The notes under the pieces: generated by a model | The model's input: only the letters and a program-made list of their open reading frames with translations | What the model was told of the DNA's origin: nothing | Database searches by the model: none | Source: Nitrosomonadales bacterium | Lineage (GTDB): Bacteria; Pseudomonadota; Gammaproteobacteria; Burkholderiales; Methylophilaceae | Direction: 5' to 3' | Length of the DNA stretch: 64,000 nt | Assembly: GCA_024642775.1 (NCBI GenBank) | Contig: JAHEAL010000002.1 | Location: 86,196 to 150,195 of the forward strand | Shown: piece after piece, positions 3,311 to 62,785 of the stretch | Position numbering within the stretch: position 1 is the first letter of the stretch | Layout of the letters: each line of letters opens with the position of its first letter | Made by a program: the position numbers and the translations under genes

Positions 3311-4185
3311 TGACCTCAAAATATTTAAAGTTAGAAGAAAGAGGTGGTCAGCATTACCTTAAAATTGACAATGGTCTGGCAGAGGCAGATATTTCTCTTC
3401 AAGGAGCTCATGTTTCATGGTGGCGACCAAAGCATACAACAGAAGATGTTTTGTGGCTTTCTTCAAATGCTCGGTTTGAAAAGGGCAGATCTATTCGAGG
3501 AGGAGTGCCTATAATTTGGCCTTGGTTTGGCCAGCATCCGACTGATAATAGTTATTGTATGCATGGTTTTGCAAGAGTTATTCCATGGGAGCTTCTTAGT
3601 TCAGAAGATCTAAAAAATGGTTCAACCAGGTTGCATTTAAAAATGACTCCAACTAACGAAGTAAAAAAACAACTTTCATACGAATTTACTTTAGAAGTCG
3701 TAATTATTATTGGTGAATCACTTACCGTGAGCCTGATCACTTCAAATCATTCTCAATTTCCATTTATTATCTCAGAAGGATTCCATACCTACTTCTATAT
3801 CTCAGATCTAGACAATATAAAAATCAGAGGTCTTGAAAATGCTTTATTTACCGATAAGGTTGAAAATTTTAAAAAAGGGATTGAGCAAGATGAGATTTTG
3901 GTATCTGGTGAGATTGATAAAGTTTATTTAAACAATAGCAATGACTGTTATATCGAAGATTCAAAATTTAATAGAGTAATTACTGTTAAAAAATCTAATA
4001 GTAATTCCACAGTTATCTGGTCACCAGGTGAGGTCAAGGCTAAGAAAATGTCAGATATGGGCAAGGAAGACGAGTGGAGGAGAATGATTTGTGTTGAAAC
4101 CGTTAATGCGCTCGAGAATAATGTTGTTATATACCCAGGCAAGACTCATACAATCAGCACGGAGTTCTCTGTTCAAGAGTATTGA
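3310..4185 (+). CDS. D-hexose-6-phosphate mutarotase (aldose 1-epimerase family, YeaD-like)
   Basis: The 291-residue protein has the aldose 1-epimerase/galactose mutarotase fold as in YeaD: an early GAHVSWWRP segment, RGGVPIIWPWFG, then HGFARVIPW with the likely substrate-binding His, and a late VETVNA segment with the catalytic-type Glu. YeaD-type enzymes interconvert anomers of glucose 6-phosphate and related sugars in the cytoplasm. It is joined to ilvD by a one-base overlap, an odd partner for branched-chain synthesis; co-transcription is likely but a shared function is not obvious. No signal peptide is seen. Confidence 0.87.
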   Translation: MTSKYLKLEERGGQHYLKIDNGLAEADISLQGAHVSWWRPKHTTEDVLWLSSNARFEKGRSIRGGVPIIWPWFGQHPTDNSYCMHGFARVIPWELLSSEDLKNGSTRLHLKMTPTNEVKKQLSYEFTLEVVIIIGESLTVSLITSNHSQFPFIISEGFHTYFYISDLDNIKIRGLENALFTDKVENFKKGIEQDEILVSGEIDKVYLNNSNDCYIEDSKFNRVITVKKSNSNSTVIWSPGEVKAKKMSDMGKEDEWRRMICVETVNALENNVVIYPGKTHTISTEFSVQEY

Positions 4186-20025: not shown

Positions 20026-21696
<1,671 letters not shown>

Positions 21697-57035: not shown

Positions 57036-57470
57036 ATGAAAAAAATTAATAGTCGACGCAAGTCCAGAGAATTAGTTATGAAGTCTGTTTATAGGGGACT
57101 GGTCAACTCATTTGATTACTTACAAATCATGAAAGATATCAAGGAAGACCCTGACTTTTGCAGATCTGATGAGGTTTTTTATGAGTCTATGCTTATGGGT
57201 ATAAAAGAGAATTACGAATCAATATTTAATGAAATTGAAGATTTTACTGATAAGAAATCAAGTGAACTAAACCCAATTGAACTATCAATTATCATTTCAA
57301 GTATTTATGAGCTAAAGTATAAGATTGATATTCCCTTCAAAGTATCAATCAATGAAGCTTTGGAAATCACCAAAAGCTTTGGTGGGGTTGAGAGTTACAA
57401 GTTCATCAATGGAGTTTTAGACAAGGTGGCAAAAAAATATCGACCAACAGAGTTTAACTTATCTCATTGA
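57036..57470 (+). CDS. nusB: Transcription antitermination protein NusB
   Basis: The 144-residue all-helical protein pairs with NusE in rRNA antitermination. It has [35 protein letters not shown], the [29 protein letters not shown] end. Its 3' end overlaps the convergent lpxH by 17 bases. Confidence 0.95.
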
Positions 57471-58194
57471 ATGTAAAATTTTCTTTCTCTGACCATATTA
57501 GATAGTTTCCATATTTCTCTGTCCAGTCTCCTAAAACATATCTGTAATGCTCGTGATTATCATAAATATTTTTGTGTATCTTTCTTCTATGCGTATGACC
57601 ATGTATTAGTGGTATAAAATTAAATTTTTCTATCAACTTAATAGTATCTTCGTTATTTACATCTGTGATAGCTTGTGATTTTTGCCTGTTAGCTTCTCGA
57701 CTTTTTTCACGCATTTGATGTGCAATCTCAATTCTTTCTGAAAGTGGTTTAAGCAGGAATTTTTCTTTCCACTCTATACTTCTAACTTTAGATCGAAAAT
57801 TTTGATAATCCTTATCATCGGTACAAAGAGTGTCTCCATGAATTAATAGGGCACTGGACTTATCGTTTAGATAAAGTTCCGTAACTTCATCAAGTTCGGT
57901 AATTTGTGTTTCTTGAAAAAATTTTTTGCCTACTAAAAAGTCTCTGTTGCCATGAAGAAAAAATATATTTATCTTCCTTGATAAATCTCTAAGGGCTTCA
58001 CACTCTTTGACATACAGACCCGAGTCGTCGCCAACCCAATAATCAAATAGGTCCCCAAGAATAAACAGATGATCCGTAATTGTAGGGACATTTTTTATAA
58101 AATCTAAAAATAGCTTATTATCACGGTCATCTGAGAGGTGCAGGTCAGAAATAAAGACTGCTGAACTAGCTTCGCTACTCAGTGATAGCTTCAT
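57454..58194 (-). CDS. lpxH: UDP-2,3-diacylglucosamine pyrophosphohydrolase
   Basis: LpxH makes lipid X in lipid A synthesis. The 246-residue metallophosphatase has [49 protein letters not shown] and [13 protein letters not shown]. It overlaps the cyclophilin gene upstream by 20 bases. The order cyclophilin-lpxH next to cysS is the one seen in betaproteobacteria. Confidence 0.95.
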
Positions 58195-58663
58195 CTATAC
58201 TTATTTGATCTTTGGGAACATCTTGATGGCCGGAGGGGTGATTACCTGTCGGTACCTTAGCTATGTCATCAACTATATTCATACCTTCAATTACTTTGCC
58301 AAAAACACAATATCCAAAACCGTCTTGACCTGGATAGTCTAAGAAACTGTTGTCAGCAACATTGATAAAGAACTGTGACGTAGCTGAGTCAGGAATGCTT
58401 GTTCTGGCCATTGCTACTGTGTATTTATTATTCTTTAAACCATTAGCAGCTTCATTCTTAATAGCTGGATTTGTATCTTTTTGATTCATATCTTTATCAA
58501 ATCCACCACCTTGAATCATAAAGCCATCAATAACACGGTGAAAAATTGTTCCATTAAAAAAACCATCATTTACATATTTTTCGAAATTACTTACTGTAAT
58601 TGGAGCCTTGTCAGCATATGTTTCTATTACTATGTCGCCTTTGCTTGTTTTAATTTTAATCAT
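58175..58663 (-). CDS. ppiB: Cytoplasmic peptidyl-prolyl cis-trans isomerase (cyclophilin)
   Basis: A 162-residue cyclophilin without signal peptide, starting [20 protein letters not shown]. It has [14 protein letters not shown] (catalytic Arg), [17 protein letters not shown], and [17 protein letters not shown]. Its central part is identical base for base with the neighbour gene for 412 bases (58248-58659). Only the last 20-odd residues differ, ending in [10 protein letters not shown]. Known to speed Xaa-Pro isomerisation. Confidence 0.96.
58248..58659. repeat. Direct repeat copy 1 (412 bases, in ppiB)
   Basis: These 412 bases are identical to 58757-59168 with an offset of 509, in the same orientation. 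All positions agree including third codon positions and the small ORFs on the opposite strand. Confidence 0.98.
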
Positions 58664-58683
58664 ATAATCCTCATTTCCTAATA

Positions 58684-59253
58684 TTATTTAATTTTTGATA
58701 TTCCTTGAATTGAAATAGCTCTAATAGGTACATTTTCATGTCCGTTTTTATTTCTAGTCGGTACCTTAGCTATGTCATCAACTATATTCATACCTTCAAT
58801 TACTTTGCCAAAAACACAATATCCAAAACCGTCTTGACCTGGATAGTCTAAGAAACTGTTGTCAGCAACATTGATAAAGAACTGTGACGTAGCTGAGTCA
58901 GGAATGCTTGTTCTGGCCATTGCTACTGTGTATTTATTATTCTTTAAACCATTAGCAGCTTCATTCTTAATAGCTGGATTTGTATCTTTTTGATTCATAT
59001 CTTTATCAAATCCACCACCTTGAATCATAAAGCCATCAATAACACGGTGAAAAATTGTTCCATTAAAAAAACCATCATTTACATATTTTTCGAAATTACT
59101 TACTGTAATTGGAGCCTTGTCAGCATATGTTTCTATTACTATGTCGCCTTTGCTTGTTTTAATTTTAAAAATTTCAGCAGAAAAGGATATTGATGAGATT
59201 AAAATAAATGTAAAAGTGAGTATTAATTTTATTATTTTAAATTGATGTTTCAT
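58684..59253 (-). CDS. ppiA: Exported peptidyl-prolyl cis-trans isomerase (cyclophilin)
   Basis: A 189-residue cyclophilin with a signal peptide ([18 protein letters not shown], cleavage near SFSAE), then the same core domain as its neighbour, from [14 protein letters not shown] on. It probably acts in the periplasm. The C-terminal tail ([17 protein letters not shown]) is distinct. I take ATG 59253; ATG 59271 is six codons longer. Both starts overlap the end of the L,D-transpeptidase gene. Confidence 0.95.
58757..59168. repeat. Direct repeat copy 2 (412 bases, in ppiA)
   Basis: The second copy of the perfect 412-base repeat. It ends on the left where the C-terminal codons diverge and on the right just before the signal peptide codons. 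Confidence 0.98.
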
Positions 59254-60439
59254 TGATAATTTTCCAATCATTGTTAAATTTCTTCCAAATTTGTATCTTA
59301 TGGGAACTGTTTATTAGTAAGTTACTTTGGTAGTGCTGGTCAAACTCCACATACCTTATTGTATCTTTATCATCTGGATAATCAATAATCGAAATATTTT
59401 CAATCTCAACTGAAATATTTTTTGTATTTCTAAAAATTTCAAATTTATCATTTGTCCAGTCTGAATAGTGTCTTCCATTATTTTTGGCATCACCATCATA
59501 AAAAGCTAAATAATTAGCAATAAATTTTGACTCCCATGAGTTTTTCCATTCATCTAGCGTTTTTATAAAATTATCATGAGAATCCTCTAAATTTTTTTCA
59601 AGATAGCTTTGATAGGACTCTTCAGAAATAATAACTTTTGTTTTATTTGATTTAAGTATAGTTTCTAATCTCTTTAGATCGTCATTAGCAAGAACTACAC
59701 ATCCATCGCTTGATTGAGGTGCTCTACTATATGTATTCTTTGGAGTTCCATGAATCCATATCCCATGACCAGTTTTATTCTGTAATTTGTCATATATGTT
59801 TGGATAATTTATAGGGAAGGCACCATCTCCATAGAAATCGCTTAGCTTTTGTTTGATTTTATTTCCAAGCGTATAGACTCCGATAGGCGTTTTCTTATCC
59901 CCTTCAAATTGCTTACCAGATCCATTTTTTCCTATGGAAATATAAGCGTCCATTAATTTAATAATTTCTCTACCATTATTTTTAAATACAATTAATCGAG
60001 ACCCGGATGTATCAATAAAAACTAAATTATCAATTTTATTGGATAAGGTAAGCCTTTGTTCTGAATTAGGGCTTAAATAATTAGTTTCCAAGTGACTTTT
60101 AATTCTTCTCCTGGCTTCTTCTCTTAGTCCGCTAACCTCTTCTGAGGAATAGTTAGTAGAGCCTCCAAATCTTTCCAAACCTTTAGCTTGTGCAAGATAG
60201 ATATCACCCTTGATCAGATGGGCAAGTTTAAAGTTAGGTTCTTTTTCAATTACATCATCAATATTATTTAGAGCTTCATTCAGGTTTCCTTCAGAAATGT
60301 CGAACAAGGTTTGAATTAAAAGATCTTCGATATTTAAATGATTATCGTCATTGGATTTGGCTTGCAAGTTACCAGATAGTCCTTCAAGACATAAAAAGAG
60401 GAAAAAAAGCGGAAGTATTTTTATGCTATGAGATCTCAT
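59237..60439 (-). CDS. L,D-transpeptidase (YkuD) with TPR-like N-terminus and NTF2-like C-terminus
   Basis: A 400-residue exported protein. Signal peptide 1-27; helical, TPR-like repeat part about 35-95; YkuD catalytic domain with [21 protein letters not shown] split over residues 240-261 (catalytic His and Cys in SDGC); last about 110 residues form an alpha+beta, SnoaL/NTF2-like domain. It makes 3-3 cross-links or anchors proteins to peptidoglycan. This domain order resembles the Cds6-type L,D-transpeptidases. The C-terminal domain is shared with the next gene (see findings). It overlaps that gene by 14 bases. Confidence 0.88.
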
Positions 60440-61349
60440 TTATTATTTTTAATACGCCATTTTCATTTTTTAAAATTAATGTTTTCTTGCTAGTGCTTGA
60501 AATATTATTTGATTTGTAGGTCTGATTGAATGAAACTTCAACAGTCTCTTTTTGGACTTCAAAATAAAGGTTTGATATCTCAATGAAAATTTCATCTTTA
60601 TAAATAATTCTGGGTTTCCTGAACTTTTTCCATTTTTCATAATTTTGATTTTTGTTGTTCATAAAATCTAAAGAATAATGGTTTATGTAATTATCAAAAT
60701 CTTTACTAGACCATGCAGTCTTCCAGCTTTCGATGAATTCATTCACCTGGGAAGGGTTTATTGTAATTGGTGCATTTAAGTTACTTTCTGATTCCGCCTT
60801 TTCATTTTCCTCTGAAATTTTGAGTGCCACATTTTTACCAATAGGTTGAAAGTTAAAAAGTCTTTTTATCAAAGATAATTTAGTTTTAGCGCTCTGATTG
60901 CTTTTATCAATCTGTAAAGCTTGATTATAAGACTCGCTAGCCATCCTTGTGTATAAATCGCCTAAATTTACATGAGCTGTTGAATAGCTAGGATGAGTTT
61001 TAATAGCTTTTTCTAGTGCATTTTTTGCCGCAAGAAAATCACCTTTCTGAGCATATAAAACTGCGAGATTATTATAAGGTTCGGGAAGGTTTGGATGACT
61101 TTTGGATAAATCTTCAAAAACTTTTATTGCTTCATTTTGTTTACCCATTTCGGAAAACAACACCCCTTTTATAAATAGTAATTGAGGGTCATCACTATCA
61201 CTTATCAATAATTTTTCAATTTCTTCACTTGCAGATTTATAGTCTTTGGATTCAATTAACAAGTTAATACTTTTAATATCTGCTGCATATATTGTTGTTG
61301 ATATAAATATATATAACACCAAGTTTGCTATTAAATTTTTTTTTGACAT
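60426..61349 (-). CDS. TPR-repeat exported protein with NTF2-like C-terminal domain
   Basis: A 307-residue protein: an N-terminal signal/anchor (MSKKNLIANLVLYIFIST, near YAADI), about four TPR-like units (residues 25-150, for example PQLLFIKGVLFSEMGKQNEA, LPEPYNNLAVLYAQKGDF), a linker, and a C-terminal 105-residue SnoaL/NTF2-like domain beginning FIESWKTAWSSKDFDNYINH. I do not know a named function. It is followed by the L,D-transpeptidase gene and is probably in one operon with it and the two cyclophilin genes. I take ATG 61349. Confidence 0.82.
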   Translation of the reverse strand: MSKKNLIANLVLYIFISTTIYAADIKSINLLIESKDYKSASEEIEKLLISDSDDPQLLFIKGVLFSEMGKQNEAIKVFEDLSKSHPNLPEPYNNLAVLYAQKGDFLAAKNALEKAIKTHPSYSTAHVNLGDLYTRMASESYNQALQIDKSNQSAKTKLSLIKRLFNFQPIGKNVALKISEENEKAESESNLNAPITINPSQVNEFIESWKTAWSSKDFDNYINHYSLDFMNNKNQNYEKWKKFRKPRIIYKDEIFIEISNLYFEVQKETVEVSFNQTYKSNNISSTSKKTLILKNENGVLKIINEIS

Positions 61350-61423
61350 ACTATAATTAATTAAAGCGTATAAGAAATAACATTTTAACAAATTACTCAG
61401 AATCTTACTATTAAATATCTACC

Positions 61424-62785
61424 ATGATCCAAATTTATAATACTCTCACAAGGCAAAAAGAAGTCTTTAAACCACTAAAAAAAAATGAGGTGAATATGTA
61501 TGTTTGTGGAATGACGGTTTATGACCACTGCCATCTTGGACATGCAAGAGCTTTAATCGTTTTTGACTTAATCTACCGCTGGTTGTTAGATGCTGGGTTG
61601 CAAGTTAACTATGTCAGAAATATAACTGATATTGATGACAAAATTATTGCTAAAGCCAAAGATGCAAACGTCGATTTTTCAGTCATAACGCAAGAATTCA
61701 TTCAGTCTATGAACGAGGATTCGAGCGAGTTAAATATTTTGCCCCCCAAAAAACAACCTAAGGCAACCGAGTCAATTGAAGAAATGATTCAGATGATCTC
61801 AAATTTAATTGCCGAAGAATATGCTTACATTGGAAGGAATGGTGATGTTTTTTTTCATATTTCGAAGTTTAAGGAGTACGGAAAGTTATCAAAAAAAACT
61901 TTGGAGGATTTGGACCCAGGATCAAGAGTAGGCCTTGATGAAAATAAAATCAACCCTCTTGATTTTGTTCTCTGGAAATTAAGTAAGCCAGGAGAGCCAT
62001 CATGGAAATCTCCATGGGGCGAAGGAAGACCAGGTTGGCATATTGAGTGCTCTGCAATGAGTACAAAGTATTTGGGAAAAAGTTTTGACATTCATGGGGG
62101 AGGTCAAGATTTAATATTTCCCCATCATGAAAATGAAATCGCACAATCTGAATGCTGCAATCATCAAAAAATGGCTAACTACTGGGTTCATAATGGATTC
62201 GTGAATGTTGATAATGAAAAAATGTCAAAGTCATTGGGAAATTTTTTCACTATAAAAAAAATCTTAGAACAATTTAATGGTGAAGTAATTCGCTTTTTTA
62301 TATTAAAGTCGCATTACAGAAGTCCTTTGAATTATTCTGATACTAATTTAGTCGACGCAGAAAATAGCTTAAAAAAAATATATATTTCTTTGAGAGATTA
62401 TAATTGTATTGAAATAGCAATCGACTGGAATAAGCCCTATTTGCATAATTTTAAAGCGGCTTTAGATGATGATTTTAATTCTCCAAAAGCGCTAGCAGTA
62501 ATTTTTGAATTGATTAATAAGCTTAATAAAAATAAAGATCAAGTTCTGGCTAATGAAATTTTTACAATTCTTAAGAAAATAGGCTTATTAAAATTTACCC
62601 CTGAAGAATTTCTCAAGAATCCAATCAATCTTGATGTTACTAAGATTGAAGAGTTAATCAAATTGCGGCAACAGGCTAAAATTAATAAAAATTTTTCTCA
62701 GGCTGATCAGATTCGTAGCGAAATTGAATCATTGGGAGTTGTTATTGAAGATTCACTTGGCGGAACATCTTGGAGAAAAAAATGA
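61424..62785 (+). CDS. cysS: Cysteinyl-tRNA synthetase
   Basis: A 453-residue class I synthetase. It has YVCGMTVYDHCHLGHARAL (HIGH-type HLGH), the zinc-site C28-type Cys and ECSAMS, GGGQDLIFPHHENEIAQSEC, and EKMSKSLGNFFT (KMSKS). It starts at ATG 61424. It overlaps argJ by four bases. cysS diverges from the TPR protein gene. Confidence 0.98.
   Translation: MIQIYNTLTRQKEVFKPLKKNEVNMYVCGMTVYDHCHLGHARALIVFDLIYRWLLDAGLQVNYVRNITDIDDKIIAKAKDANVDFSVITQEFIQSMNEDSSELNILPPKKQPKATESIEEMIQMISNLIAEEYAYIGRNGDVFFHISKFKEYGKLSKKTLEDLDPGSRVGLDENKINPLDFVLWKLSKPGEPSWKSPWGEGRPGWHIECSAMSTKYLGKSFDIHGGGQDLIFPHHENEIAQSECCNHQKMANYWVHNGFVNVDNEKMSKSLGNFFTIKKILEQFNGEVIRFFILKSHYRSPLNYSDTNLVDAENSLKKIYISLRDYNCIEIAIDWNKPYLHNFKAALDDDFNSPKALAVIFELINKLNKNKDQVLANEIFTILKKIGLLKFTPEEFLKNPINLDVTKIEELIKLRQQAKINKNFSQADQIRSEIESLGVVIEDSLGGTSWRKK

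Follow-up and report, generated by a model that had tools for sequence, protein, structure and literature searches.

In eight genomes of one bacterial clade, the neighbouring cyclophilin genes ppiA and ppiB carry cores that are 99.7–100% identical within each genome, while the orthologous cores of the same genomes are 77–97% identical, that is, 3–23% apart. These comparisons support recurrent gene conversion as the process that keeps the two cores near-identical while the species diverge. Taken as a whole, the reading that we consider very probable is that of an ancient tandem ppiA/ppiB pair, the cores of which (about 400 bp) would be recurrently converted within the genome by RecA-type exchange, with edges limited by homology and with the absence of MutS and MutL probably acting as a permissive condition.

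The pair was found in a stretch of 64,000 nucleotides, here called the window, from a draft genome of 1.15 Mb (46 contigs, 91.6% complete). The preliminary description had claimed a perfect repeat of 412 bases, synonymous sites included, and this is borne out: 412 of 412 bases match, at an offset of 509, between a segment inside ppiB and one inside ppiA, with 97 bases separating the copies. Within the 64-kb window no other exact direct repeat of at least 25 bases is present, except for a stretch with a 9-base period (20041–20070). The position of all relevant features is reported in Table 1.

Table 1. Features of the ppiA-ppiB locus in the window: position, strand and basis of the assignment
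Feature	Position	Strand	Basis
Repeat copy in ppiB (presumed converted cyclophilin core, 412 bp)	58248..58659	-	exact match
Repeat copy in ppiA (presumed converted cyclophilin core, 412 bp)	58757..59168	-	exact match
ppiB, cyclophilin without signal peptide, 162 aa	58175..58663	-	ORF; Pfam PF00160, 161 bits
ppiA, cyclophilin with N-terminal signal-peptide-like stretch, 195 aa	58684..59271	-	ORF; Pfam PF00160, 159.1 bits; signal peptide by eye
ppiA N-terminal (signal-peptide) segment, outside the identical tract	59169..59271	-	sequence, repeat limits
97-bp linker, apparently unconverted: ppiA C-terminal tail, intergenic bases, first four bases of ppiB	58660..58756	-	
ppiB C-terminal tail, apparently unconverted	58175..58247	-	
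lpxH, conserved downstream neighbour, synteny marker	57454..58194	-	NCBIfam above cut-off; synteny
YkuD-domain protein with Cds6_C domain, upstream neighbour	59237..60439	-	Pfam; in fetched stretches only in the homogenised clade
cysS, synteny marker	61424..62785	+	ORF; name presumed from its sequence

Both proteins match the Pfam model PF00160, the gathering score of which is 21.7. They belong to the same cyclophilin family as PpiA and PpiB of Escherichia coli, where the two genes are presumably not adjacent, and remain below the cut-offs of the NCBIfam equivalogs NF008151 and NF008057 for PpiA and PpiB (223.9 vs 308 and 219.7 vs 297); for each of them, the better-scoring model is the expected one. 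The solved structures nearest to ppiA are named peptidyl-prolyl isomerases or cyclophilins. The N-terminus of ppiA, as read by eye, features a basic and a hydrophobic stretch, and resembles a signal peptide. A PpiB query against the window's own genome returned two matches, ppiA and ppiB only.

Relatives were sampled from 31 genomes of the genus, the window's own included: a match was found in 27, and none in the other four (G006, G011, G015, G026). The homogenised set consists of all the clade genomes in which both copies are readable (G000, G001, G003, G005, G008, G013, G023, G029). Third codon positions of the two cores are 99.2–100% identical within each of the eight, while those of orthologous cores are 46–93% identical among them. 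When changes are counted by parsimony on the flanking-gene topology, over 396 interior columns, 231 are found for ppiA and 230 for ppiB; between the two copies, a single difference is present in the whole set of 8 x 396 interior sites, and G008 and G023 additionally differ in the edge codon. States private to one of the eight genomes are present in both copies in 55 cases, and in one copy only in none. For nine diverged genomes of the genus, used as a control and compared with orthologues of their own type, the private states are shared with the same letter in 10 cases, limited to ppiA in 128 and to ppiB in 106, and present in both copies but different in 7. The two distributions (55/0 vs 10/241) differ with a Fisher p of about 8e-51, a value to be read with the provision that some dependence exists among sites and among genomes, and that private states are defined slightly differently in the two sets.

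In a tree of core proteins, the pairs group by genome in seven of the eight cases, six of which correspond to identical proteins; the support of the G023 fork is 77/0. In a tree of the flanking genes (26 rows, G027 being left out), a long and fully supported branch separates the eight genomes and G014 from the rest. Comparison with close relatives, as proposed in the preliminary description, thus argues for gene conversion, concerted identity being found in 8 of 8 scorable clade genomes. The conversion had been called "recent": the term understates the case, as conversion appears to recur in every lineage of the clade, and is probably ongoing.

The edges of the identical tract nearly coincide in all eight genomes, to within a few codons at the start and about two codons at the end; in G000, the tract starts at the fifth base of ppiB. 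Both the signal peptide and the C-terminal tails had been described as unrelated between the two genes. This holds for the N-terminal stretch, which has no counterpart in ppiB, and not entirely for the tails: these feature 44% nucleotide identity over 72 bases and a common G-H-x-x-V-P motif, and look like diverged homologous tails left unconverted.

The possible donor of the shared core was evaluated by scoring its segments, in four of the eight genomes, against the unconverted pairs of the genus. The first 14 codons are ppiA-like (+19 to +22 bits), the segments that follow score close to neutral, and codons from about the middle onwards are ppiB-like; four of the nine leave-one-out controls were run against the genus pairs, and behaved as expected. 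When the same 14 codons are scored against other genera, the sign reverses (-4 to -10), one leave-one-out control (ppiA of G035) being itself weak there. Since the first segment is not ppiA-like by this second comparison, donation in both directions, from ppiA and from ppiB, is likely rather than proven.

The tandem arrangement had been described as old, and the wider survey agrees. Wherever flanks are readable, the neighbourhood in the genus is formed by cysS, ppiA, ppiB, lpxH, nusB and ribH. In the eight homogenised genomes, two extra genes are located between cysS and ppiA. In the window they occupy 59237–61391, and encode a TPR protein and a YkuD-domain protein, with a common Cds6_C NTF2-like domain and about 36% amino acid identity; the stretches fetched for the other genomes of the genus contain no match to them, the contig of G014 ending before that place. 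Outside the clade, two copies are found in 13 genomes of the genus: nine diverged pairs, G007, and three pairs that are partly alike.

Tandem pairs also occur in other genera, where flanks were not compared. A search of the whole family gave matches in 97 of 100 genomes. Of 20 loci taken from it outside the genus, 14 contain a pair, with cores 60–64% identical; the other six feature one gene in the fetched stretch, and any additional matches listed for these genomes lie at other places. Among 80 named loci, the best of 577 confirmed relatives, a tandem pair is present in 39, and is identical only in LSUCC0401; in the other 38 pairs, cores are 63–83% identical and the longest common runs do not exceed 45 bases. 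The top of this range is held by a pair from a Curvibacter MAG (L097, 4117–4635), with a core identity of 83%; some pairs like this one may convert now and then.

Within the genus, states other than full homogenisation were observed. The nine unconverted pairs (G002, G004, G009, G016, G018, G019, G024, G025, G028) share 62–70% of their core bases, with longest common runs of 11–20 bases, so that an identity over 412 bases is far beyond chance. G007 also carries diverged copies; its ppiA is cut by the contig end, and it was therefore left out of the codon comparison. Copies are partly alike in G012, G021 and G027. G012 and G021 feature local blocks of near identity between the copies: comparing the two genomes, both copies changed alike at 7 positions, 6 of which fall within 67 bases, while 31 changes are limited to ppiA and 30 to ppiB. 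This pattern is read as partial conversion, over a short tract, after the split of the two genomes. G010 belongs to the same lineage, with an assembly gap in its ppiB: its three match rows are fragments of the locus, interrupted by a run of N. A ppiB remnant was considered for this genome and rejected, as the bases flanking the run are 61/64 and 61/63 identical to ppiA (95–97%).

G027 contains an identical run of 257 bp. In its ppiB (L152, about 3431–3935) a GC-richer, non-cyclophilin stretch is located between a first part that looks converted and the gene's own tail; the assembly being 47% complete, with cysS in three pieces, the inserted stretch is probably an assembly chimera, and G027, although counted among the listed pairs, was not relied on. 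In G014 the contig ends about 70 bases into the ppiA core, and in G022 the core is split between two contigs, so that it was counted neither as fused nor as paired.

Finally, three of the 27 matched genomes, G017, G020 and G030 (L144, L147, L155), contain a single gene, in which a signal-peptide-like start and a core are followed by a ppiB-like tail; a second cyclophilin match was not found in these drafts. Such fused genes are apparently the product expected from a deletion between the direct repeats. The three genomes are all drafts (90% complete for G030, 61% for G017 and 68% for G020), so that in each of them the second copy may be missing, or may have been collapsed by the assembler.

Genes for mismatch repair and recombination were searched for in the same 31 genomes. 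MutS was found in none of them, while the same search was positive in 11 of 14 control genomes. For MutL nothing scored over the cut-off in the 31 genomes; short sub-threshold matches are present in nine of them, in ORFs of 705–711 aa. Family-wide, MutS is present in 76 of 100 genomes: of the 24 without it, 11 belong to this genus, 10 to genus g14, where all 10 genomes searched score negative, and 3 are multi-contig drafts. Mismatch repair thus seems to have been lost in small-genome branches of the family, MutL having been searched for in the window's genus only. RecA is found in 27 of the 31 genomes, and in 14 of the 14 near-complete ones. RecB-like helicase matches are present in 30 of 31, none of them above the RecB cut-off; we guess that some of these may be AddA.

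In Salmonella, the tuf genes convert 200–1000-fold less with mismatch repair than in mutS strains (PMC5485169). As conversion of tuf is higher when mismatch repair is missing, loss of MutS and MutL is a plausible permissive cause for ppiA/ppiB as well. Loss of MutS as a sufficient cause was considered and rejected: nine pairs read in genus g14 are unhomogenised, with cores 60–64% identical, and the nine diverged pairs of the window's own genus are also unconverted, all of them in genomes without MutS. The loss would thus be at most permissive.

The proposed mechanism starts from RecA-type strand exchange between nearby direct repeats, at an offset of 509 bp in the window and of 519 bp in LSUCC0401. 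A new mutation in one copy would be overwritten by the other copy, and as a result the two cores would evolve as one sequence. Conversion would stop at the limits of homology: at one edge the signal peptide or the start codon, at the other the C-terminal tails, which have diverged. Products that would swap localisation are probably purged by selection as well. Without the MutS/MutL barrier, conversion is probably rapid enough for hardly any difference to persist.

Other explanations of the identity were weighed against this reading. A single genome alone, identical at all synonymous sites, would fit a recent tandem duplication of ppiB, in which the new copy captured a signal peptide and became ppiA. 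The preliminary description had left the choice between conversion and such a fresh copy; conversion stands, while the fresh copy is refuted, as it requires neighbours without the pair, and the pair is present in the 13 other two-copy genomes of the genus and in other genera. In unconverted genomes of the genus, ppiA occupies the same position and has a signal-peptide-like start and a tail of its own, and the tails of the eight homogenised genomes group by gene (58–99% identity among ppiA tails, 67–99% among ppiB tails, 44–56% between the two). A fresh duplication would need eight separate events, at the same place and with the same edges, and is given very little credence. Even less is given to purifying or codon selection acting without DNA exchange. 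Cyclophilin cores are indeed conserved proteins, but third positions are 99–100% alike within a genome, as against 46–59% between G000 and the other seven clade genomes; selection on the protein cannot account for a synonymous identity limited to copies of the same genome, and this explanation is refuted.

The repeat might also have been created by a short-read assembler, writing one consensus into two diverged copies: the window comes from a draft, and other drafts break at this locus, as in the contig end of G014 and the run of N of G010. Such breaks are, however, what truly identical repeats would produce, and the same near-identity is present in five single-contig genomes (G001, G003, G005, G008, G013). 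One of these, G008, is the complete chromosome CP103442.1 of Methylophilaceae bacterium LSUCC0401, which we take to be a member of the marine OM43 clade, and features an exact repeat of 405 bp. An artefact is therefore very improbable. Somewhat more weight, although still a minor share, is assigned to cycles of unequal exchange, in which triplication followed by loss would homogenise the copies in place of non-reciprocal conversion. The direct repeats, 97 bp apart, and the deletion-type fused genes agree with such cycles; on the other hand, a deletion removes the linker, so that the pair cannot be re-formed from its product, and no triplicated locus is seen among the 27 matched genomes of the genus. 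The sequence outcome would otherwise be the same, which makes the two processes hard to separate. As to the suggestion that repeats of this kind allow deletion or expansion of the pair, deletion is thus supported by the three fused-type drafts, with the reservation of collapse made above, and expansion is not.

A bistable switch may also be tentatively proposed, as a possibility that we rate below even chances: in a streamlined lineage without mismatch repair, a tandem pair would either keep diverging (60–70% identity) or, after one conversion that creates sufficient homology, lock at near-identity. The identities of 34 pairs fall at 60–70% in 23 cases, at 99.7–100% in 8 and at 75–82% in 3, one of which is unreliable, a distribution compatible with two states and few intermediates; the 8 are related to each other, and 5 of the 23 come from genera with MutS. 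A homology threshold would fit the gap between 70% and 99.7%, which holds these three pairs only. If the switch operates, a single catalytic core evolves in common for proteins of two compartments, and only the signal peptide and the tail are shielded from the exchange.

Gene conversion is an established cause of concerted evolution, described for tuf, amo/hao, fla and other genes (Wang and Chen 2018, PMC6053082). The tufA and tufB genes, encoding EF-Tu, are likewise kept near-identical within a genome by recurrent conversion, strongly raised by loss of mutS (PMC5485169, PMC6053082). In Salmonella, the two tuf genes are separated by 762 kb, inverted, and nearly identical over their full length; ppiA and ppiB, in contrast, are 97 bp apart, conversion appears to be limited to a domain, and each product is expected in a compartment of its own. 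Long-lasting concerted evolution is likewise described for the tandem paralogues of fla (flagellin) and mtrA in PMC6053082, for genes and taxa other than those considered here. None of the 26 genes listed in Tables 1 and 2 there is a cyclophilin. No prior report of gene conversion between bacterial cyclophilin genes (ppiA-ppiB) was found in the open-access literature searched: the word "cyclophilin" occurs 0 times in the accessible text of PMC10872708 and PMC12421898, and ppiA-ppiB conversion is unmentioned in that of PMC4285135, where the word itself was not searched for. The process is known; the novelty lies in this gene pair, in a tract limited to the domain between products of two compartments, and in the MutS-less setting.

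For these bacteria, the core sequences of ppiA or ppiB cannot serve as markers independent of each other, and the locus is one at which short-read assemblies are broken or possibly collapsed. Few cases of long-lasting concerted evolution are listed for bacteria, and the pair adds a clean, small one. Unconverted pairs, partly converted and fully homogenised ones, and apparently fused genes all occur in a single genus: this natural series is suited to asking what starts and what keeps concerted evolution, and whether the loss of mismatch repair matters.
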